Assembly (NCBI GenBank): GCA_913040875.1
Contig: CAJWHX010000092.1
Coordinates: forward strand, 1-10,087
From: an uncultured Pseudomonadota bacterium
Lineage (GTDB): Bacteria > Myxococcota > UBA796
Direction: 5' to 3'
DNA length: 10,087 bases
Below, one piece after another: positions 1 to 10,087 of the stretch (the first letter of the stretch is position 1; the number at the start of each line of letters is the position of its first letter). A program made the position numbers and the translations under genes. The notes under the pieces are model-generated. The model did not search any database. It was not told the origin of the DNA and worked only from the letters and a program-made list of their open reading frames with translations.

Positions 1-180
1 TCTTTTATAGAAATTTCATCCCCACTTCCTACATTATAAATTTCTGATTCAAGATTATTGATTAATGAAAAGAGAATGGCCTCTGCCAAATCATCTACAT
101 GAAGAAATTCACGAAGTGGTTCTCCAGTTCCCCACAAAATAACATCTTTATGATTGTTAATTTTAGCTTCATGAAACTTG
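1..180 (-). other. GDP-L-fucose synthase (Fcl/WcaG-type) C-terminal fragment, foreign to its surroundings
   Basis: Read on the minus strand in the frame of the upstream EEP gene, residues from about 218 on match the C-terminal part of GDP-L-fucose synthase, the epimerase/reductase that makes GDP-L-fucose for surface polysaccharides: KFHEAK, then VILWGTGEPLREFLHVDDLA, then a YNVGSG segment. No start and none of the N-terminal Rossmann part is present, so it is a fragment. By direct count 57 of the first 180 bases are G or C (32%), against 108 of the next 240 (45%), and its codons favour AAA, ATT and AAT. It therefore looks as if it came from another genome or region, joined at a short shared stretch. 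Confidence 0.75.
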
Positions 181-830
181 TTGATTTGCTTCAGTTTGGC
201 ATCTTCCTCTGAAAAGGCCTCCAAATGAGTGTTCACCGCATAAAAGTTGTCATTCCAAGGCAAATCAATCTTGGCTGTCAAAACGTGCCGTTTCAAGTAC
301 AAATACCTGTAGTAGCCGGGGTATGCGTCCACTAGAGGCAAAGATATCCGAGTAGCCTCTGAAATCGGCCAGCGACTCAATATAGCATTTCCAAAATCAA
401 TGTGCCCCATTCCATCTGTCGGGAGAAAATCTACTCGATGCTGAGAAGCATACGCACCATAGTTTAAGGGTGTATTGTCCAACAGATACTGTGTCTGATC
501 GATGTATCCTGAACGAAGTGAACTTCGGTCCACCTCTTGAAGAATCAGGATGTCTGGGTCAACATCTGTGATGAACTCCGCCAGATTGTCTAAGTGCGTG
601 TACACTTCTTCATCCGTCATATTATAGCGCCCCCCCTCACACTCCCAAAAGAAGGTCAGTCTAGCACCACCATACTTTATATTGTAATTCAGAACCAGCA
701 GCTCATCCTGTTCAGATGGCGCCTGTTGCAACGTATTGGCTTCATACAGAAAAGCGGGTTCTTCATCGTTAAAATTGGCTCGAAAGGTTGTACCATCACA
801 CCCTGTCAGCCACAATATTACAGAAAACAT
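1..830 (-). CDS. EEP-family (endonuclease/exonuclease/phosphatase) lipoprotein, chimeric with a GDP-L-fucose synthase fragment; 3' end beyond window
   Basis: The ATG at 830 is preceded by GGAG five bases upstream and, further up, by an in-frame TGA. The frame stays open to base 1 (276 codons seen). Residues 1-11 form a very short lipoprotein signal ending in the lipobox LTGC (Cys11). Residues 44-215 carry the landmarks of the EEP fold, a metal-dependent phosphodiesterase family: NYN (48-50), QEVD with the metal-binding Glu99, GNAILSRWP (147-155) and NTHLEA (200-205). Substrate cannot be told; DNase, sphingomyelinase-like and phosphoinositide phosphatase roles are all possible. The family's last motifs (GDFN and SDH) are missing, because after INKFHE (216-221) the protein becomes GDP-L-fucose synthase-like: WGTG (233-236), REFLHVDD (240-247), NVGSG (266-270). 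The gene lies 21 bases after the repeat-protein gene, probably in the same transcript. EEP identity is confident; the natural existence of the full-length chimera is doubtful. Confidence 0.8.
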   Translation of the reverse strand, partial: MFSVILWLTGCDGTTFRANFNDEEPAFLYEANTLQQAPSEQDELLVLNYNIKYGGARLTFFWECEGGRYNMTDEEVYTHLDNLAEFITDVDPDILILQEVDRSSLRSGYIDQTQYLLDNTPLNYGAYASQHRVDFLPTDGMGHIDFGNAILSRWPISEATRISLPLVDAYPGYYRYLYLKRHVLTAKIDLPWNDNFYAVNTHLEAFSEEDAKLKQINKFHEAKINNHKDVILWGTGEPLREFLHVDDLAEAILFSLINNLESEIYNVGSGDEISIK

Positions 831-851
831 TTGTACTCCAACTCAGATAAA

Positions 852-1997
852 TTAATCAAGAAGATTCACTTCATTTCGACGACGGAACCCCAAGGACAGT
901 AGGACCATCAGCATTCCAAACATCGATGTCTCATCTATAGTAAAGCACCCCGTTTTGGTTTCAACAACAGTATACCCCCCACTCAATGTTGCCTGATCAT
1001 TGTCACCTTGGACTACGGACACATCGTGGGTACCAACTGGAAGAGCCGTCGGGACCTGAGCAACAATGGCATTTTCACCAACCACCTCGACATCTGAACA
1101 CATCAATCCGCCAATATATAGCATTGCATCACTGGTAAATCCGTCGCCAGTTGCGGTAACCGTTACCACCTCTCCAAAAGTTCCTTCATTGGGTGTGAGA
1201 GTCGATAAAGAGAGTACGTCCATTGGTTCGGAGGACGGTTCGCTTGAAGGCTCGGAACTGGGCTCGGCAGCCGGCTCTGCACTTGGCTCAGAAGACGGTT
1301 CACTACTCGGCTCGGTGGAGGGTTCGGAACTGGGCTCCGTGGCTGGCTCACTTGAAGGTTCAGAACTGGGCTCAACCTCCACATCACCATTTGTGGATGC
1401 CTTGGCACGAATCACCCACGATCCAGGCTGTTGTGTATTGGTAATTGGATTGGTAATCGTATCGACTTGTCCTTCTAAATAGACATAGGTACCAGTACTT
1501 GGGGAGGCACTGTGCAAAACAACCCCCGCATTGTCAAAACTGTCGTAGGGCCAAGTTCCGACTGCGGGATCTGGTGCGCACACCCAAACAGCAAACGATC
1601 CACTTGTCACGCTTAGTGCCCCTGTACCAGTTTGGGGATCTAGAAGACTAAGAGCATTCAACGCTTGAGAATTAATTGTTATGGAAAAATTTGTTAACGG
1701 CCAATCAAAGTTCCCAAATTGTGTCGGTGCAGCTCCACTTCCAAGCAGTTGTATCCCCATCTCAACATAGGTAGAAATGTTGTCTAAGGTTCCGTACTGA
1801 GAGGCGAAAAACACTTCAATGGTGTGGACATTCACTGGATAATCAGAAGCGTCAGGAGTCAATACGCTGACGACGCATTCAGGATATTCAAGCCAAGCCA
1901 CCATATCTCCAAATCCAAATGAATTGTTTGTGGAGGTGTCATTCTGAATCGTGATCTCAGTGGCATTTGCAGATGTCATTAGGAGAAGAGAGAGCAT
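852..1997 (-). CDS. Secreted Ser/Glu/Pro-repeat protein with IPT/TIG domain and MYXO-CTERM-like tail
   Basis: The protein has 381 residues. The start at 1997 has AAAGG seven bases upstream; the frame above holds only non-start codons back to a TAG. Residues 1-13 are a short signal peptide with likely cleavage after ANA. Residues 14-205 form a beta-rich domain I do not recognise, with Cys41 and Cys140 as a possible disulfide. Residues 209-258 are an acidic linker of [12 protein letters not shown] units. Residues 262-345 look like an IPT/TIG immunoglobulin-like domain ([21 protein letters not shown], ending GGYTVVE). The end carries GC (350-351), a hydrophobic stretch (about 358-370) and RRR (372-374), the layout of MYXO-CTERM sorting tags. 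That tag normally marks proteins that are processed at the C terminus and displayed on or released from the outer surface. Role: surface or secreted protein, function unknown. It is the first gene of a pair with the EEP lipoprotein. Confidence 0.85.
1224..1373 (-). repeat. In-gene tandem repeat coding EPSS-type units
   Basis: About 150 bases of imperfect tandem repeats code for residues 209-258 of the secreted protein. Units are three or four residues long: EPSSEP with variants EPATEP, EPSTEP, EPSAEP and EPAAEP. On the plus strand it appears as recurring GGCTCGG / GGTTCGG / GGCTCAG blocks. Synonymous differences between copies show that the array is not freshly expanded. It likely acts as an extended, negatively charged spacer between the N-terminal domain and the IPT/TIG domain, and could vary in length between strains. 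Confidence 0.9.
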
Positions 1998-2094
1998 TGA
2001 CGCGCCTTTGATGAGGATTGACCGCTATGACTAAACTATCATATGGTACAATCTATCACACTACCTATAAATTCGACAGAGACCTTGACTGAAT
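1998..2094. promoter_or_regulatory. Divergent intergenic promoter region
   Basis: This 97-base gap separates the repeat-protein gene (minus) from the hydrolase gene (plus), so it should hold both promoters. A candidate -10 for the minus direction is TATGAT (2038-2043, minus strand), which would give a leader of about 33 bases. For the plus direction TATAAA (2066-2071) is a candidate -10. Neither has a convincing -35 at the usual distance, so both are weak calls. AT-rich sequence around 2031-2075 fits promoter use. No clear operator palindrome was seen. Confidence 0.35.
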
Positions 2095-3180
2095 ATGTAT
2101 CCAACCCTACTCCTTCTATCTTCAATCTTCAGTGCCTGTAAAGACTCTGTACTCCCAACAGCAATTGATACTTCAACACCTGACGAAACCTACGATGCTG
2201 GAATGAGGGATATTACATTTACCGACTCACGAGGAAAAGAGTTGTTGATGACAGTGTGGTATCCGACCACTGTTGAAGCCGATCGAGAGCCCGACACCTA
2301 CGAACCGTTCTCGATCGCATTGAATGGATACAAATCGACCAGTCCCGTTGTGAACAATGCCCCCCTCATCGCATTTTCACATGGATTCTTTGCCATTCGA
2401 TATCAGTCGGCATTTCTGATGGAACACCTCGCCCAGCACGGATTTGTAGTGGTTGCCGTGGACCATCCATTCAACACTTTATACGACTTTGAAGATGCAC
2501 ATACCGCGCGTGTACTGCTGGAACGTCCCGATGACCTACGGTCAGCCGTAGACAAGGTGATTGAGTTGTCCGAGGATGAAATAGATCCGCTATTTGGAGC
2601 CGTAGATGGCTCTCAATACATCGCAATGGGGCATTCTTTTGGTTCGCACACCGCTACGGTATTGGGTGGTGGTGACCTAGATTATGATGGGTTGATTGAG
2701 TTTTGTGAATCCTTTCCCAATGAACGGGTCTGTGGTTATTTGGATGGTCTGGACAATGTTGATGTTACTCAGTATGGGGATGTCGATCAGCGAGTCATCG
2801 CTACCATTCCAATATCACCGGGACTCTGGTATACATTTGGTGCAGCTGGTTCAGGCCTACAATCTGTGTCCAACCCCTTGGTCATTGCAGGGAAAGATGA
2901 CGGTGTATTGGGATACGAGACAGAAGCGCTTCCCTACTTCGACGCGCTATCCAGTCCCAAGCATCTTTTTACAATGAACAACACGGGTCATTATGGGATG
3001 ACCAATATCTGCGATATCGCTGGATTTCTATCCGAGGAATGTACTGAAGAAGGATGGCAAAGTGTTGAAGAGGTTCAAGAGGCGACCGAGACAATTGTGA
3101 CTGCTTTCATCGCTTCTCAATTTTACAACACTGAGTTTTCCCTTATAGACTCAGATTGGATACACTATCAATCCGAATAA
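2095..3180 (+). CDS. Alpha/beta-hydrolase lipoprotein, PAF-acetylhydrolase / dienelactone-hydrolase type
   Basis: The protein has 361 residues. The ATG at 2095 follows an in-frame TGA only three codons upstream, so no longer start exists; the ribosome site is weak. Residues 1-15 are a lipoprotein signal with lipobox FSAC (Cys15), so a membrane-anchored protein in the periplasm or on the surface is expected. The catalytic order of the alpha/beta-hydrolase fold is visible: HGF (96-98) for the oxyanion hole, GHSFG (179-183) with nucleophile Ser181, VIAGKDDG (263-270) supplying the acid Asp268 or Asp269, and GHY (298-300) with His299. The opening (RDITFTDSRGKELLMTVWYP, 38-57) is typical of PAF-acetylhydrolase-like and predicted dienelactone hydrolases. 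Likely an esterase or lipase on short acyl or phospholipid substrates; exact substrate unknown. Cys204, Cys213, Cys306 and Cys316 may form disulfides. It stands alone on its strand, diverging from the repeat-protein gene and converging on the kinase-like gene. Confidence 0.87.
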   Translation: MYPTLLLLSSIFSACKDSVLPTAIDTSTPDETYDAGMRDITFTDSRGKELLMTVWYPTTVEADREPDTYEPFSIALNGYKSTSPVVNNAPLIAFSHGFFAIRYQSAFLMEHLAQHGFVVVAVDHPFNTLYDFEDAHTARVLLERPDDLRSAVDKVIELSEDEIDPLFGAVDGSQYIAMGHSFGSHTATVLGGGDLDYDGLIEFCESFPNERVCGYLDGLDNVDVTQYGDVDQRVIATIPISPGLWYTFGAAGSGLQSVSNPLVIAGKDDGVLGYETEALPYFDALSSPKHLFTMNNTGHYGMTNICDIAGFLSEECTEEGWQSVEEVQEATETIVTAFIASQFYNTEFSLIDSDWIHYQSE

Positions 3181-3188
3181 CTATCGAA

Positions 3189-5372
3189 CTATGGGCTCTT
3201 TACACGCTTGAAACCCGATTTTCGCATCGCATTGGACATTTCAACCCAACCGAACTTATCTTCAACCGGTGTGCATACCTCTAGATCAAATGGAGCCAGC
3301 ACACACCATCCTGTCTTTTCAAATTTCCCAGGTAATGGTTGTATGGAACCAGAAGAGAAGGACTTTGCCATCCATGAATAGTACGAGTGGACATCCTTAG
3401 GCTCCCAGGCTTCTTGAAGTTTGGTCGTACCCCTCCCCCTTTTGGAATAAGATCGACCACGATTGTCTGTCAGTCGATCATACCACTCTTCAGTTGTCCA
3501 ATCACTCTGTTTGCGGAGTCCAACCACATAATCCATTAATGTCTCCGAACCCAACAACGGACTTTTCTCTGAAGTTTCGGGACCAGCGTTGATCAAACAA
3601 CGATTGATGGCGAACTCCAAATGAGCAGTAAACACACTGTGAGGATACAACTCATCATCGTACAAATCTATCAGGTTCGTACAGACATCATCCAACAGGA
3701 CGGACTGTTCGAGAACCAAATCTCCTTTTGTGTTGATGATGGACATCCAAAGTAAGGAGAGTTCAGCCTCAGACCAGAATGGCAGCTTTGATTTCATGAT
3801 CAGCTGATGCGTCATCGTCAATGCTTGATCGCACATGGATGTTGTTTCTTCAGCACCTTTTGACGCACCCAAATGACTGATACAAGTTGCCAAATCAAAA
3901 TATCGAGCCACAAATCCCACAACGTTGTCTGTGTAATCGTGCTTTTCTAACGCTAGAAGTTCCTGATGTACATCAGAACAATGTCCCTTTTGGTATATCT
4001 TGTGAAATGCTTTGGGATGTGGATACTCTGTTCGAATGGGACAGGATATCAACCCTGCGCCTTGTCCCTTAGGGAGTTGACTGCTGAGAAACAAACGCAT
4101 GGCTGTGATTGCCGGAGTGGTTTCCTGGTTACTCTGTTCTAGGACGCCTTTCACAGATTTCAAACCAGACTCAAATTCAGCATCTGAGTTTGTATACAAC
4201 GGCTCTACAGTTTCAAAGACATTCAACGTTGTCCTTTTGATGGGGATGAATTTTGTCCACACCAGCCATACCAGACCAACTAAGACAATCAGCCCCACAC
4301 CCCACATCATCATTGGTAGTACAGAAGCCAAACTGGAGTTATCCTTATCAGTGACAACAGGAGGCACTTCTGCTTCGGGCTCTTTCTTCAGCATAGGTCC
4401 AGGATCCGACAATCGATGGGTTAATGGCCCCTTTAATGGGCTCTCCAATGAATCATGAGGGAGTTGCATGAGTTCATCGACCATGTACTTAAATTCCTCA
4501 TTTAAGTGTAGATAGCTCCGACCCAACAGTTCACACAAACACAAATACACATCGGCGGCCCAACCGTGCTGTTCCACATAATGATAATTGGGACTTCGTT
4601 TTGCCACCTCTCCATAACGCATGCGCGTGGTCAGACGTATGTATTGCTCGAGATAGGAAAACCCCAGTGACGGATCTGCATCATACATCAAGTGGTTCAA
4701 CGGAGAATACGGAGCGGGTTTCAGTTTCCTTGTCTTTTCCTTATCAATTTGTGGTCTCATGATGGATTCAACATCGATCCAGACACACTGGTAGCGGACC
4801 TGATTTCGATATGAAGGTTTCTTTGTCAGGTATATATTCCCCTCACGATTCTCCAATCCCAAAATCACGTCATAAAAGCACAGCCCAGCCCGATGTAAAT
4901 CTTCAAACATCTCCAGATAGGCATCGACAATCTGCTTTCGCTCTCCATCACTATAATCAGCCGGAGAGTTCCTTAGTCGAACAACCTGAATCCACGGTTG
5001 AAATATATAGACAGCTTCATTCCCAAAGTACAATCTGGAATCCCCAAAACCTGGTAGATATTTCCACAGACCACTGCGATCCAATAAGAGAGTGTAGGCG
5101 TGAAGTAAATAGGTTACATCCAATTCTGCTTGAGTCGCGTTGCTGTGATGTTTAAACTGAAATATCTTTGGAAATTCTCGGATAAACAACCAACGATTAC
5201 ACAGCCTTTGCGATATTTGCTGAGCAAGGTCAATATTGACAATCTGTCTTGTCCGCAACGCGATCTTGTAGCATTTGAACTCTTCACCGGTCTTTAATCG
5301 AACGTGATAAACGCTCCGATGAGGCACATCCTTCTTCGAAAAATCGTTGATAATGACAAAATCTGGCTGCAT
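3189..5372 (-). CDS. Membrane protein with divergent protein-kinase-like domain and Cys-containing C-terminal domain
   Basis: The protein has 727 residues. The only plausible start is ATG at 5372 (in-frame TAA eleven codons upstream); no Shine-Dalgarno site is visible. Residues about 20-325 resemble a protein kinase. CYK (34-36) could be the ATP-binding lysine. LHRAG followed by FYD (166-168) stands where HRD is expected, NIYL (179-182) where the NILL of the catalytic loop is expected, WIDVE (198-202) where DFG is expected, and AADVYLCLCELLG (272-284) matches subdomain IX. No glycine-rich loop is seen, and the catalytic-loop lysine and spacing are abnormal, so it may be a pseudokinase. A Kdo/WaaP-type lipopolysaccharide-kinase relative is an alternative. 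Residues about 352-373 are one membrane helix. Residues 374-727 are unrecognised, lack PASTA repeats and contain eight cysteines (444, 465, 497, 514, 564, 592, 690, 700), which suggests an oxidised, extracytoplasmic domain. Charges flanking the helix do not settle the topology. It follows the SEDS-PBP gene by 72 bases, suggesting a shared operon and role in wall-synthesis control. Confidence 0.72.
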   Translation of the reverse strand: MQPDFVIINDFSKKDVPHRSVYHVRLKTGEEFKCYKIALRTRQIVNIDLAQQISQRLCNRWLFIREFPKIFQFKHHSNATQAELDVTYLLHAYTLLLDRSGLWKYLPGFGDSRLYFGNEAVYIFQPWIQVVRLRNSPADYSDGERKQIVDAYLEMFEDLHRAGLCFYDVILGLENREGNIYLTKKPSYRNQVRYQCVWIDVESIMRPQIDKEKTRKLKPAPYSPLNHLMYDADPSLGFSYLEQYIRLTTRMRYGEVAKRSPNYHYVEQHGWAADVYLCLCELLGRSYLHLNEEFKYMVDELMQLPHDSLESPLKGPLTHRLSDPGPMLKKEPEAEVPPVVTDKDNSSLASVLPMMMWGVGLIVLVGLVWLVWTKFIPIKRTTLNVFETVEPLYTNSDAEFESGLKSVKGVLEQSNQETTPAITAMRLFLSSQLPKGQGAGLISCPIRTEYPHPKAFHKIYQKGHCSDVHQELLALEKHDYTDNVVGFVARYFDLATCISHLGASKGAEETTSMCDQALTMTHQLIMKSKLPFWSEAELSLLWMSIINTKGDLVLEQSVLLDDVCTNLIDLYDDELYPHSVFTAHLEFAINRCLINAGPETSEKSPLLGSETLMDYVVGLRKQSDWTTEEWYDRLTDNRGRSYSKRGRGTTKLQEAWEPKDVHSYYSWMAKSFSSGSIQPLPGKFEKTGWCVLAPFDLEVCTPVEDKFGWVEMSNAMRKSGFKRVKSP

Positions 5373-5444
5373 GGGACTACGTACGGGGGTTGGGTTGCGC
5401 GTTTAATGTATCTGATACCGCAGTGGTCATCAAAGGGACCTAGA

Positions 5445-8400
5445 TTATGGAACCATATCCAAATCCACTAACACTTGAACAATCTCTTCTGCGATCGGAC
5501 CGGCTATTCCTCCCCCGGTGATGCTACCTGCTGAATCTGGTTTGTTCTCCGTTCTCGGAACACGAACCACTATCCCTATTCGCTCATCAGTCAATTGTTT
5601 CGTATTAGCAGGATCTCTTTGTTCTACCAATGCCACATATATCGCCATGTTTGAAGGTATTTTTTTGCCGTCTTTTGTTCGATACTTTCGTGTTACTCCG
5701 TATGGTGCTTCATAATCTTCAATCCAAAGAACCCTTTCATTGGATCGACCTTTGTTGTATACCTGCTTACGAATGAAATCCCCTTCCTTCTCTGTCGAGT
5801 ACGAATTAAACGCGATGTTGTGATCTCCCGTTCCTGTCTTCCCATACACTCTAACTGATGGGATACGAGTACTTTGTCCAGCTGCAACAACATGATCAAA
5901 CATCCCTTTTAAAACATAGGCTTCAATTTGGCTACCACCAGTTCCATCCAACAATGAATGGAAATCCCCTATCGACTTTTTCTCTCTCTGTTCAGGATGC
6001 AAATAAGCGTCCCAAGATTCTAGGTAAGGTTGATAGTTCGTTGAGACCGACTGAAGTACACCAGCCATCTGATAGACATCCATCAACAGCTCTTGCCCCC
6101 AACCATTAGAGGCAGCCCCACGAGATTTTGGATCTTTCAACTTACATTCTCCATACGCACCAAATCTCAATCCCTTTTCGGCACACACCTTGGTCAGGAC
6201 TTCTGGATGTGTATGCTCATACGCCAATGCCGCAAAGTACTGATTGCAGGATTGTGTAATCGCCCATGATAAATTTGTTTTTCCAGATGTCGTTTTGTTG
6301 TGCGTGGAGTACCCCTTTTGCAAACCATAGTCTTTGATCGAACAGTCACTACCCTTCTTACATGGCCAGTCTGAATCTTCGGGAAGATATCCATTGTGGA
6401 CATCACATTTGTGTTCAAAATCGGTGAACCCACCTTCAATCGCCGCAAGGGCATGGAGAACTTTAAAAGTAGAGGCAGGTACCATACTGGAATTTAAATT
6501 GTTGCGACCATACCCGTACATCCCTCTGTCTGCAAACAAATTTGGATAATCCTTTGCCTCCATATACTTTTGGAAGCTGCTGTGCGGCTTTGTCGCCTGA
6601 GCCTGGGATAAGATTTGTCCTGTTTTCACATCAAACACAATCGCTTGTACAGACGGTGCCTCCAAAAGTTCCTGATGATCTTTCAGGATACCGCGCACCT
6701 TATCCTGCAACGTTGCATTCAATCCTATTTGTACAATTGTTTGGGGCACCACCTTCTCGAAGTCAGCAATGTAACGAAGCTGCTCAGCCACATCGGCCTG
6801 AGAAAAATTGTGCAAGGAGACAATTTCATCTTCATAGTTTGAAATCAGTCTCTCCATCGCTACAGGAAAGTAAAACTGATGAGCACCGAGCGCAGTGTTT
6901 CCAGAATGTAGTTTTTTCAAGCCACCGATCATTTCTTTGGAGACCTTACAGTATGTATCTCTAAACTGCAACTTGCCATTTCTACCAAAATACACCTTTG
7001 TTTTTGCGACACCATTGGTCACATCCGGAGTGTGGTGATCAATTTCTACCGTACCATCCACCAAGCATCCGACACGTTCAATCTTGGCAACACATTGTCC
7101 CGGTTCAGATAAATCTTCAATATAAATACTTCGTGCAGAGCCTCGACCTATTTGGTTTCCATCAATGGTATTGAGACCATATTTCACCGTATCCCCTTTT
7201 AAATCGGTAATAGAACAGGTACCTTTCGAACTCTTAATGCCCACTCTTTCTTCTACCTTAGTATTCCAGGTCGCTACTACACACACGTTGCTACCCTCGT
7301 CTTCAACGTCGTCATAATTCAAAGACCGTATTCTTACTTTGGGGCGCCCAACCTGAACTAAATAGGGCGCAAACTGACTATCCATGTTTGTCTCATCGTG
7401 CTTAAAGAACCAAACACTGTGGTTGGGGTCAAGAATTTCCTCTTCAGCAGATAGGTATGGAAGCACAACTGTTGAACCGGTTTCAGACACCAACGTACAT
7501 CCTTTCGTTGGATCATTGGAATCTACAGGAACACCGATACTCTTTTCTTTCCACAAACGTCCTGTACGGACCTTCTGAACAGTACAATTGTACTCGTTCT
7601 CCTGATCATCCATTGACGTATATGCACCGATTTCCTCAACTAGTTTTCGGGTCTTTGCACTCGAACCTTGAAGGGTTTGACCGGCGTATTGATGGTACTC
7701 TCCGTCTTTCAATACACAGATCTTGTTGTAGTAAACCTTATCCTCCATCGATTCTTGGGTTAATCCCCTCAAGGTATACTCATGCTCTTGCTCAAAATGA
7801 TGTAGAAAGAAATCCTCTTGATTGAAGTGTTCAAAGCGATATTTGCCATCCTCATCTTTGATCAAGGAAGACTCTAAGGACGCAGCATCCTTGCCATCGA
7901 AACTGGAATCAACAATCTGTCCACTTACGCTCAACTGATCGGTCAACAAGAATAGTCTTGGATTCACAACACGTTTGATACTTTTGTCAGCTTGGATATC
8001 ATAGCGCACCCGAGTACTGTACTGATGACCGTGAAGCTTGGTTTCCTTGAAAGCATAGCCCATTACAATGACCATCGTAATGACGATCAACAGTAGCATA
8101 CCACCGATTCTAGATGGTTCGGCAACAACAGCATCTCTACTACCCCTATCTCGTGGAAGGTACGCCGCCGCAACCATGGCGACCAAAATCATATTGAGCA
8201 GTAGAGAAAATCCAGAGTGCGAAATAAATGGCAATACGATTCCAGTAAAAGGAATGAAGTCAAAATTTCCACCGAAATGAACGACTACTTGACCAAAGAT
8301 GAGCGCCGCCAACCCAAGAGACAAACCATATCGAGGATAAAAACTTTGCTCCTTGGTTTGATACAGCGAAATGGCACCCCAAATCAGCCCCAAGAAAAGC

Positions 8401-9722
8401 CCCATCACAACACATAAACCCAACCAACCAAATATCTCAATCAAGGCCGAGCCCGCTCTATCGTTGTATCCAAACGCCATACTGGCTACGTACAATCCAT
8501 CTCGTCCCTCTTGAGCGAACAATCCCGTTCCACGGCCGTTCAAACCTCCAGCAGCAATGCCCCACAATGCCTTAGCAAAATCTGGACTGGATGCAGTGCC
8601 GACGACGTAATCATCTCTGATTCCACTGGTGATAAAATAATCTCCAAGAGCCCAGTCACCGAGTCGTTCCTGAGTTCCAAAAATCCACTCTGGCTCCCAC
8701 TTCTTAAGTCCAAATGCCAGTGCATACAACGCCAAACCCAATATCCATACGGTCCATTCAAAGACAACAGAGAAACACACCAACAGAACAGCAAAGAAAA
8801 TAATTAACCCCGCTCCCAAATCATTGAGGAGTTTCAGAAAAATTAGCATGAATGTTATCAATAGGAGACCAAATCCGGCTGTAAACCACTTGAGCTTATT
8901 CATCCTTATGTTGTCGCCTCGACGCGTTTGCACGGCCTGCGTGACCCACCCTGACAATCCGACAATCAGTAAAACCTTCAACGGCTCCAATACCGTAATG
9001 CCACCCACAAAACTCGAAGGCAACAAGAAAAATATCGGAAAGAGAACAAATGCAATAAAGAATCGCCGTCGATAATGAACACCATTGCAAGCCTGAATAA
9101 AATCAGACTCTGTACGGAATCCAGAACCAACTTTCACAAACATGTTGACCAACTTTCCATCACGAACATCTACATGAGCGGCATTAAAAAGGAATACCAA
9201 TGTCGCAAAAAACCAGCAATAACTTGGCCAAATAAAGGGATTGGTCCAGCTGAACCAGTCTGCGTCGCGTGCAAAATAAAAGTTATAGGGCTGTCCGTAG
9301 GCTTTCACCGCACCCTGCAATGGATTGTGTGTTCCTATTTGAAGAACGTATCCGACCACCATCAATGCCAACATCGACAGAAGGACCAAGGCGACTTGAG
9401 CATTGCTTATATAACTCGCCCTCTTCTGAGATCCTTCTCCCAATAAAACCATCCGAGTCGATACAAGAGCGGCAAATATGAGACTGGTGACAGAAAAGAG
9501 TCCATATGTCACGTGAAAAAAGAACCACGCATTTGCCTTTTCATCTTTGTAGAGCAATTTCTCTTCATAGTTGACATGTTTAATATACTCAAACAGCGTT
9601 CCATCCGAATTTGTTAACGTCAGCTGTTCAATCAATTCAATACTAGTCCCTAGAACATACACGGCCGTAAAATATCCGACTGCCAGTATCGTGACCCAGC
9701 ACAGAAAAAATAGTTTCTTCAT
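5445..9722 (-). CDS. Single-chain SEDS glycosyltransferase (RodA/FtsW-type) fused to class B penicillin-binding transpeptidase (PbpA-like)
   Basis: The protein has 1425 residues. ATG at 9722 has GGGGA five bases upstream. Residues 1-525 are a polytopic SEDS domain, which polymerises lipid II into glycan strands. It carries GGLNGRGTGL (392-401) and ND at 420-421, where Asp421 sits exactly eight residues before the Glu of the IEIFGWLG block, matching the catalytic Asp of RodA. LPFISHSG (497-504) is the usual signature near the end of the domain. About 270 residues precede the core, with extra membrane helices. A basic linker (522-538) and a helix (539-557) lead outside. NPRL (587-590) and SGQIVD (600-605) resemble the opening of a PbpA pedestal. 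Residues 656-985 are unrecognised, with eight cysteines. The transpeptidase domain (about 990-1420) has all three motifs: STFK (Ser1084, Lys1087), SCN (1158-1160) and KTG (1295-1297). It should therefore both polymerise and crosslink peptidoglycan. Whether it serves elongation or division is not shown. The reading frame is unbroken and topology is consistent, so the fusion looks real. Confidence 0.93.
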   Translation of the reverse strand: MKKLFFLCWVTILAVGYFTAVYVLGTSIELIEQLTLTNSDGTLFEYIKHVNYEEKLLYKDEKANAWFFFHVTYGLFSVTSLIFAALVSTRMVLLGEGSQKRASYISNAQVALVLLSMLALMVVGYVLQIGTHNPLQGAVKAYGQPYNFYFARDADWFSWTNPFIWPSYCWFFATLVFLFNAAHVDVRDGKLVNMFVKVGSGFRTESDFIQACNGVHYRRRFFIAFVLFPIFFLLPSSFVGGITVLEPLKVLLIVGLSGWVTQAVQTRRGDNIRMNKLKWFTAGFGLLLITFMLIFLKLLNDLGAGLIIFFAVLLVCFSVVFEWTVWILGLALYALAFGLKKWEPEWIFGTQERLGDWALGDYFITSGIRDDYVVGTASSPDFAKALWGIAAGGLNGRGTGLFAQEGRDGLYVASMAFGYNDRAGSALIEIFGWLGLCVVMGLFLGLIWGAISLYQTKEQSFYPRYGLSLGLAALIFGQVVVHFGGNFDFIPFTGIVLPFISHSGFSLLLNMILVAMVAAAYLPRDRGSRDAVVAEPSRIGGMLLLIVITMVIVMGYAFKETKLHGHQYSTRVRYDIQADKSIKRVVNPRLFLLTDQLSVSGQIVDSSFDGKDAASLESSLIKDEDGKYRFEHFNQEDFFLHHFEQEHEYTLRGLTQESMEDKVYYNKICVLKDGEYHQYAGQTLQGSSAKTRKLVEEIGAYTSMDDQENEYNCTVQKVRTGRLWKEKSIGVPVDSNDPTKGCTLVSETGSTVVLPYLSAEEEILDPNHSVWFFKHDETNMDSQFAPYLVQVGRPKVRIRSLNYDDVEDEGSNVCVVATWNTKVEERVGIKSSKGTCSITDLKGDTVKYGLNTIDGNQIGRGSARSIYIEDLSEPGQCVAKIERVGCLVDGTVEIDHHTPDVTNGVAKTKVYFGRNGKLQFRDTYCKVSKEMIGGLKKLHSGNTALGAHQFYFPVAMERLISNYEDEIVSLHNFSQADVAEQLRYIADFEKVVPQTIVQIGLNATLQDKVRGILKDHQELLEAPSVQAIVFDVKTGQILSQAQATKPHSSFQKYMEAKDYPNLFADRGMYGYGRNNLNSSMVPASTFKVLHALAAIEGGFTDFEHKCDVHNGYLPEDSDWPCKKGSDCSIKDYGLQKGYSTHNKTTSGKTNLSWAITQSCNQYFAALAYEHTHPEVLTKVCAEKGLRFGAYGECKLKDPKSRGAASNGWGQELLMDVYQMAGVLQSVSTNYQPYLESWDAYLHPEQREKKSIGDFHSLLDGTGGSQIEAYVLKGMFDHVVAAGQSTRIPSVRVYGKTGTGDHNIAFNSYSTEKEGDFIRKQVYNKGRSNERVLWIEDYEAPYGVTRKYRTKDGKKIPSNMAIYVALVEQRDPANTKQLTDERIGIVVRVPRTENKPDSAGSITGGGIAGPIAEEIVQVLVDLDMVP

Positions 9723-9770
9723 CTATTCCCCAAATAAATACAATCTTTTCAGAACCAAAGACACCTTAAA

Positions 9771-10087
9771 CTAAGGTTGCGGATTTGTGGAAGTGACTTC
9801 AGAATTGGCATTAACGTCAGTCTCCGAAATATTTTGTTCCACCGCACACTCATCCAGAAACAATCCCAATCCAATACCAAACAACAAAGCTGCCCCTATA
9901 ACTGGAAGCCAAAAGGTCGCTCTCTTTTCAGATCGGGCAACCACTACCTTTGGTTCTACTCGATCGAGTCGGATGCAAAAGCCACTCGCATTGTCTTCAA
10001 ACAGGTGCTGCTTTTCTCTGATCATCGCTTCTGCGATTTCCTGAGGAGTTGACAGACCAAAGTACAACCCCAACTCGTATGCCGTAT
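9771..10087 (-). CDS. Partial: C-terminal end of a membrane protein, probably PP2C-type Ser/Thr phosphatase (PstP-like)
   Basis: The frame is open through the window edge at 10087, so the start is not visible. A TTG at 10073 could be taken as a start, but the reading continues above it and has no ribosome site. Stop TAG is at 9771-9773. About 105 codons are visible. The first 45 residues contain a helix (STPQEIAEAMI) and then EDNAS followed by a strand (GFCIRLDRVE). That is the layout of the end of PP2C phosphatases, where DN-[A/I/V]-[S/T] supplies a metal-binding Asp just before the last strand. A basic stretch (RSEKR) precedes one membrane helix (TFWLPVIGAALLFGIGLGLFL), and a short acidic tail of about 27 residues ends the protein. 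PP2C followed by a membrane helix is the PstP architecture. The next gene, SEDS-PBP, starts 48 bases on. The phosphatase call rests on a short match and on context. Confidence 0.5.
   Translation of the reverse strand, partial: TAYELGLYFGLSTPQEIAEAMIREKQHLFEDNASGFCIRLDRVEPKVVVARSEKRATFWLPVIGAALLFGIGLGLFLDECAVEQNISETDVNANSEVTSTNPQP

Follow-up and report, generated by a model that had tools for sequence, protein, structure and literature searches.

Domain organization of the fusion protein

We analysed a window of 10,087 nucleotides from an uncultured bacterium, recorded as Pseudomonadota and placed by GTDB in the Myxococcota (UBA796): assembly GCA_913040875.1, contig CAJWHX010000092.1, positions 1 to 10,087 of the forward strand. 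Its minus strand, on which all features of the protein discussed here lie, carries at positions 5445–9722 a single open reading frame of 1425 codons that starts with ATG and has no internal stop; at the base composition of the window (45% GC), the chance of 1425 consecutive open codons is about 2.5e-33. The product matches two Pfam families above their cut-offs: PF01098, the SEDS family, at residues 246–519 (50.7 bits against a cut-off of 26.4, E 1.8e-13), and PF00905, the transpeptidase domain of class B penicillin-binding proteins (PBPs), at residues 1027–1301 (58.7 bits against 22.1). The two matches and nine fused homologues identify the gene as one for a SEDS–class B PBP fusion of 1425 amino acids, and the statement of a preliminary description of this DNA that both enzyme types share one unbroken frame is borne out. 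A Shine-Dalgarno-like stretch can be seen by eye upstream of the ATG; promoter-like sites show no excess in the region 5200–10087 (4 found against 8.3 expected).

The same description had called the protein a RodA/FtsW-PbpA fusion, which was correct as to the two protein types but too specific in its naming of the SEDS half. The score of the window protein is 54.1 bits with the FtsW model (TIGR02614, equivalog cut-off 337.5) and 49.5 bits with the RodA model (TIGR02210, cut-off 336.7), far below the level required in either case, so by these curated models the SEDS half is neither RodA nor FtsW. The PBP2 model (TIGR03423) likewise stays below its equivalog cut-off of 455, at 45.4 bits. The SEDS core (residues 246–519, positions 8166–8987) is preceded by a divergent N-terminal membrane region (residues 1–240, positions 9003–9722) in which hydropathy delineates five hydrophobic segments. 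Within the family, identity to the window protein is 42–91% in the SEDS core, higher than in residues 1–240 (23–81%) or in residues 611–1020.

Catalytic residues

Alignment by phmmer to the structure 6bar, which we take to be the RodA protein of Thermus thermophilus with its catalytic Asp in the HTDF motif, pairs the Asp of that motif (residue 255, by counting along the alignment) with Asp421 of the window protein (positions 8460–8462). The transpeptidase domain (residues 1024–1425, positions 5448–6653) contains STFK (Ser1084–Lys1087, positions 6462–6473), SCN (residues 1158–1160, positions 6243–6251) and KTG (residues 1295–1297, positions 5832–5840), that is, the SxxK, SxN and KTG motifs downstream of a single anchor helix that make up the layout of a class B PBP. 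Asp421, Ser1084, Lys1087, the SCN triplet and the KTG triplet are identical in all nine aligned rows (the window protein and eight relatives) of what we call subfamily A1. Asp421, Asn587, Ser1084, Lys1087, Ser1158, Asn1160 and Lys1295 are also invariant in the 15 rows of a wider alignment. The SEDS Asp and the three transpeptidase motifs reported earlier are therefore all present and conserved.

Membrane topology and the junction

Hydropathy averaged over the nine A1 members places nine segments ahead of Asp421, a further three between it and residue 522, and a thirteenth at residues 539–557. If the N-terminus is inside, Asp421 and the PBP half would lie outside the membrane, where the catalytic Asp of SEDS proteins and the class B PBP domain are expected, and the short linker between segments 504–522 and 539–557 (residues 523–538, positions 8109–8156) would be cytoplasmic. 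This prediction agrees with the workable topology proposed earlier. The "one extra helix" of that proposal is indeed present at residues 539–557 (positions 8052–8108) but is not extra: it is the helix that normally anchors a class B PBP at its N-terminus.

The junction itself is well preserved. All eight A1 relatives align with the window protein across residues 515–575 without a gap; six of them also lack insertions, and the other two carry an insertion of two residues. Between residues 515 and 560, the stretch in which a stop or frameshift had been considered conceivable, the frame is free of stops and the homologues continue through.

Enlarged cysteine-rich region

Between the head of the PBP half and the transpeptidase domain, the window protein has an enlarged region (residues 611–1020, positions 6663–7892) that is predicted to be extracytoplasmic. 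The distance from the NPR motif (residues 587–589, positions 7956–7964) to the catalytic Ser is 456–570 residues in the nine A1 rows, as opposed to 191–282 in the 13 rows of the sister fusion family A2 described below. No Pfam family matches the enlarged region in any of the nine A1 members at E values up to 0.01. Of the 19 cysteines of the window protein, 12 are invariant in A1, all of them beyond residue 660, in the half that is predicted to lie outside: eight in the enlarged region (residues 669, 713, 742, 814, 836, 877, 886 and 925) and four in the transpeptidase domain (residues 1106, 1159, 1180 and 1193). None of the five cysteines of the membrane half is invariant. P0025, a more divergent family member, also retains 11 of the 12 in the alignment and has a cysteine close to the position of the remaining one; five more distant fusions (P0026–P0028, P0033 and P0034) lack the eight that lie in the enlarged region. 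The invariant cysteines could form up to six disulphides. Class B PBPs carry a pedestal at the corresponding place, and the enlarged region is probably a disulphide-braced form of it that would position the transpeptidase. Because changes in PBP2 can activate RodA, as reported in PMC6207328, the region may be an elaborated pedestal, and it may also receive activating signals.

The NPR motif is present in all nine A1 rows, in all 15 rows of the wider alignment and in 12 of the 13 A2 rows. It was considered as a mark of the wider lineage and rejected, as its middle residue varies and N-x-R is common there: among proteins from the genome scan described below, N-x-R is found at this place in 31 of the 35 rows from fused loci (18 with NPR) and in at least 34 of the 47 rows from separate loci (4 with NPR). 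Canonical PBPs have N-x-R in 2 of the 14 rows shown (of 15), and NPR elsewhere in 2 of 15. In our own reading of the alignments, which is not a published definition, N-x-R rather than NPR appears to mark the wider SEDS-PbpA lineage.

The window subfamily

A first protein search yielded 21 proteins, comprising eight full-length relatives of 1407–1534 amino acids (37–82% identity) and 13 shorter SEDS-PBP fusions of 878–1145 amino acids. A second search with the alignment as the query gave 17 proteins, among them P0025 (1378 amino acids, 30% identity, both Pfam domains listed); one of the first eight, P0008, was not listed. The fused full-length relatives thus number nine, with lengths of 1378–1534 amino acids and identities of 30–82%. 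Both Pfam domains match in 9 of 9 A1 members at E values up to 0.01. Homologues of the same architecture, for which the preliminary description had suggested a search, accordingly exist, and the possibility it had raised that close relatives always keep the two genes separate is contradicted by all nine.

Searches of genome_contigs and of viral_contigs, with two peptide patterns each, did not recover the family. Searches of whole genomes with the A1 profile, in sets that overlap partly and contain no known positive, so that an empty result proves no absence, gave matches in 1 of 377 genomes and 0 of 288 at E 1e-20 (the single match being the SEDS part of a distant fusion in genome G004), in 28 of 57 at 1e-10 (the SEDS part only), and in 0 of 317 and 0 of 47 at 1e-30. 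None of these searches led to a genome from the lineage of the window. No paper on the cysteine-rich subfamily was found among open-licence full texts, to which the literature search was limited.

Distribution and phylogeny of natural fusions

The shorter fusions form the sister family A2 (P0009–P0021), whose genome relatives belong mostly to the Acidobacteriota. All 13 members match both Pfam domains, and comparison of the A1 and A2 profiles gives an E value of 1.2e-44 over 873 columns, from the SEDS core through the junction and the NPR motif to the transpeptidase. Scanning genomes with A2, we obtained matches to at least 589 relatives and analysed the best 80 loci, a sample that leans to fusions since the query was itself fused. 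Both domains are found in one stop-to-stop frame at 34 of these loci and in separate neighbouring frames at 42, and four loci (L016, L018, L031 and L075) have the PBP part only. By record title, the 34 fused loci come from Acidobacteriota (14), Bacillota (10), Actinomycetota (5), Chloroflexi (1), Rhodothermales (1) and Deltaproteobacteria (1), and two carry no lineage label. Single-frame SEDS-PBP fusions are also mentioned in a 2023 paper (PMC10449877), which cites the genome paper of Rhodococcus sp. RHA1. The earlier suggestion that natural fusions are rare thus has to be abandoned.

A tree of 105 SEDS sequences (52 fused, 53 separate) was built by a quick method with Shimodaira–Hasegawa-like approximate likelihood ratio test (SH-aLRT) support and left unrooted. 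It holds 30 of the 34 fused loci (L029, L039, L048 and L077 are absent) and 38 of the 42 separate ones, rows having been dropped where the SEDS match failed to span the profile. The nine A1 rows form one side of a branch with support of 100, and A1 together with four other fusions (P0011, P0013, L019 and L033) forms one side of a branch with support of 95, a placement that is provisional in view of the branch length given below. Of these four, L019 carries the label Myxococcota, and L033 belongs to a genome that came from a search of the phylum of L019. Well supported branches of the tree record at least six changes between the fused and the separate state; therefore, fusion or splitting has recurred. 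As judged from sequence, the window protein is a member of the wider lineage formed by SEDS-PbpA-like pairs.

Thirteen genomes, picked from those behind the best 80 loci, were searched for PF01098. A fused frame was found in 11 of them, and each of these 11 also has two other SEDS genes or gene pieces; in G004 one of the two is a 78-residue frame at a contig edge, and in G002 and G003 one each matches in two pieces. In those genomes the fusion is therefore an additional synthase. Matches to PF00905 number 2–9 per genome in all 13. Genome G006, titled Chloroflexi, from which locus L048 comes, has two fused frames, on contigs C127 (a 1123-residue frame) and C460 (at the contig edge). Permanent pairing would remove partner choice for the two fused halves, as had been suggested, and given the other SEDS genes or pieces, other pairings may exist in the cells of these 11 relatives.

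Neighbouring genes

Downstream of the fusion and on the same strand lies a gene for a 727-residue protein (positions 3189–5372) with a possible degenerate kinase domain, a putative membrane helix and a putative extracytoplasmic domain. By eye, the stretches CYKIAL, FYDV...GNIYL and WIDVES follow the order of kinase motifs, with no significant profile match; no Pfam family over cut-off and no PDB sequence match was found for this protein, which has three homologues at E values up to 1e-3 and a predicted model with a mean predicted local distance difference test score (pLDDT) of 40. Upstream, separated from the fusion by 48 bases and also on the minus strand, is the 104-residue end of a gene (positions 9771–10085), for which neither a Pfam family nor a PDB sequence match was found.

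Using profiles seeded from L033, and counting loci cut at contig ends as misses, we found a PP2C gene within 2 kb upstream at 17 of the 34 fused loci and 18 of the 46 others, and a kinase gene on the same strand within 3 kb at 21 of the 34 and 21 of the 46. A PP2C-fusion-kinase operon in the window was considered and given up. The PP2C profile matches the upstream end at E 0.13 and the kinase profile gives E 0.36; profile-profile comparison assigns a probability of 3% to the kinase (P 0.014) and of 0.3% to PP2C, the upstream gene being represented only by its 104-residue end. A link between the window and surroundings of the PP2C/kinase type is a lead.

Farther along, positions 2095–3180 encode an alpha/beta hydrolase related to the PET hydrolase-like and PAF-acetylhydrolase families. 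The protein encoded at positions 852–1997 contains a stretch of Ser-Glu-Pro repeats as well as a TIG domain, and its C-terminal hydrophobic segment has arginines after it. In positions 1–830, a minus-strand frame joins an endonuclease/exonuclease/phosphatase domain (residues 62–165) to the end of a sugar epimerase (residues 215–268), and the G+C content is 32.5% in positions 1–200 as opposed to 45% in 200–830. This end of the window (about 1–220) is probably a chimeric contig end.

Proposed function and alternative explanations

Taking frame, domains, motifs, conservation and family together, we infer, with a probability of roughly 0.85, that the gene encodes a natural bifunctional peptidoglycan synthase in which a SEDS polymerase is fused to a class B transpeptidase. 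The N-terminal SEDS glycosyltransferase would polymerise lipid II by means of Asp421, the short cytoplasmic linker and the anchor helix would lead the chain back across the membrane, and the C-terminal class B transpeptidase would crosslink the new glycan by means of Ser1084. The covalent link would fix a 1:1 SEDS-PBP pair, like the pairs that are formed elsewhere from two proteins. As described in PMC6207328 and PMC10449877, artificial RodA-PBP2 fusions of Escherichia coli polymerise lipid II, are insensitive to moenomycin, bind labelled penicillin and bring back rod shape to a large extent; covalent linkage is therefore compatible with function. In the predicted model of the window protein, the best Foldseek rows for the transpeptidase part are PBPs, and a second look confined to residues 772–1200 matches class B PBPs.

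Several observations weigh against this reading. SEDS proteins usually have ten membrane helices, whereas 12 hydrophobic segments are found up to residue 522 at a hydropathy threshold of 1.3; the segment at 325–343 barely reaches this threshold, and without it the topology would flip. The predicted model, of 1200 residues, has a mean pLDDT of 49.6 and is usable in the transpeptidase part only. A separate SEDS-only relative would escape the protein search, in which lengths were limited to 0.55–1.75 of the query. The branch leading to A1 amounts to 3.2 changes per column, which makes its placement in the tree provisional, and the SEDS half is so divergent that, even with Asp421 in place, it could have a changed polymerase activity or none.

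This last point leads to the alternative that only one half is catalytic, the transpeptidase now using the SEDS half as a scaffold or lipid carrier, or vice versa. The long branch and the scores far below the RodA and FtsW cut-offs are in keeping with it, but Asp421, Ser1084, Lys1087, Ser1158, Asn1160 and Lys1295 are unchanged in 9 of 9 and 15 of 15 rows and the SEDS core has diverged less than residues 1–240 or 611–1020, so that we regard the loss of either activity as quite unlikely. Alternatively, the chain could be made fused and then cut in the linker, to work as an ordinary two-protein pair, much as partial cleavage in the linker is reported for an artificial RodA-PBP2 fusion in PMC6207328. 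Only some 16 residues separate the two helices in the window protein, and the length of 515–575 is kept in seven of nine rows including the window (no search for cleavage motifs was made); cleavage seems very improbable. An assembly or sequencing artefact joining two adjacent genes, which the chimeric look of the opposite contig end might bring to mind, can practically be dismissed, as nine different homologues are fused and the junction is gapless in 8 of 8 and free of insertions in 6 of 8.

The bifunctional synthase might be extended into a bolder scheme, in which a disulphide-braced region of 400 residues replaces separate activators of the MreC or FtsQLB/FtsN type; polymerisation, crosslinking and activation would then be united in one molecule, possibly the main synthase of an uncultured lineage and tuned by an adjacent degenerate kinase. 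We consider this scheme speculative and unlikely. As bifunctional synthases, natural fusions would offer ready-made 1:1 SEDS-PBP complexes for structural and enzymological work, and their recurrence across phyla lends evolutionary support to the SEDS-PBP pair as a working unit. To these the window subfamily adds a conserved cysteine-rich part with a possible role in activation.

Comparison with known systems

The sister family A2 has the same domain order, junction, NPR motif (in 12 of 13 members) and catalytic motifs as the window family and is homologous to it over 873 columns, but its members are only 878–1145 residues long, with 191–282 instead of 456–570 residues between NPR and the catalytic Ser. 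PF21922, which we take to be the PbpA dimerisation domain and which is listed for P0029, P0030 and P0032, matches none of the nine A1 and none of the 13 A2 members at E values up to 0.01. The RodA-PBP2 and FtsW-FtsI pairs of E. coli comprise the same domain types and the same two activities as those inferred for the window protein, but they are separate proteins with low sequence similarity to it. Class A PBPs also combine both activities, as predicted here, in one chain; their polymerase, however, is of the GT51 family, which is unrelated to SEDS, and no GT51 family is found among the Pfam matches of the window at E values up to 1.

The actinobacterial pstP-rodA-pbpA-pknA-pknB locus, as presented in PMC6554272, likewise contains a SEDS-PbpA pair, and loci related to the window often have PP2C upstream and a kinase nearby. 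In that locus, however, the pair is encoded by two separate genes, and the neighbours of the fusion in the window have no significant PP2C or kinase match. A close parallel is provided by the natural single-frame fusions referred to in PMC10449877, in which SEDS and PBP share one open reading frame as in the window. Compared with the natural fusions analysed here, the window family has diverged a great deal, and its cysteine-rich region is much longer. Natural SEDS-PBP fusions as such are already known; what distinguishes the window protein is its membership in a divergent subfamily with a long cysteine-rich region.

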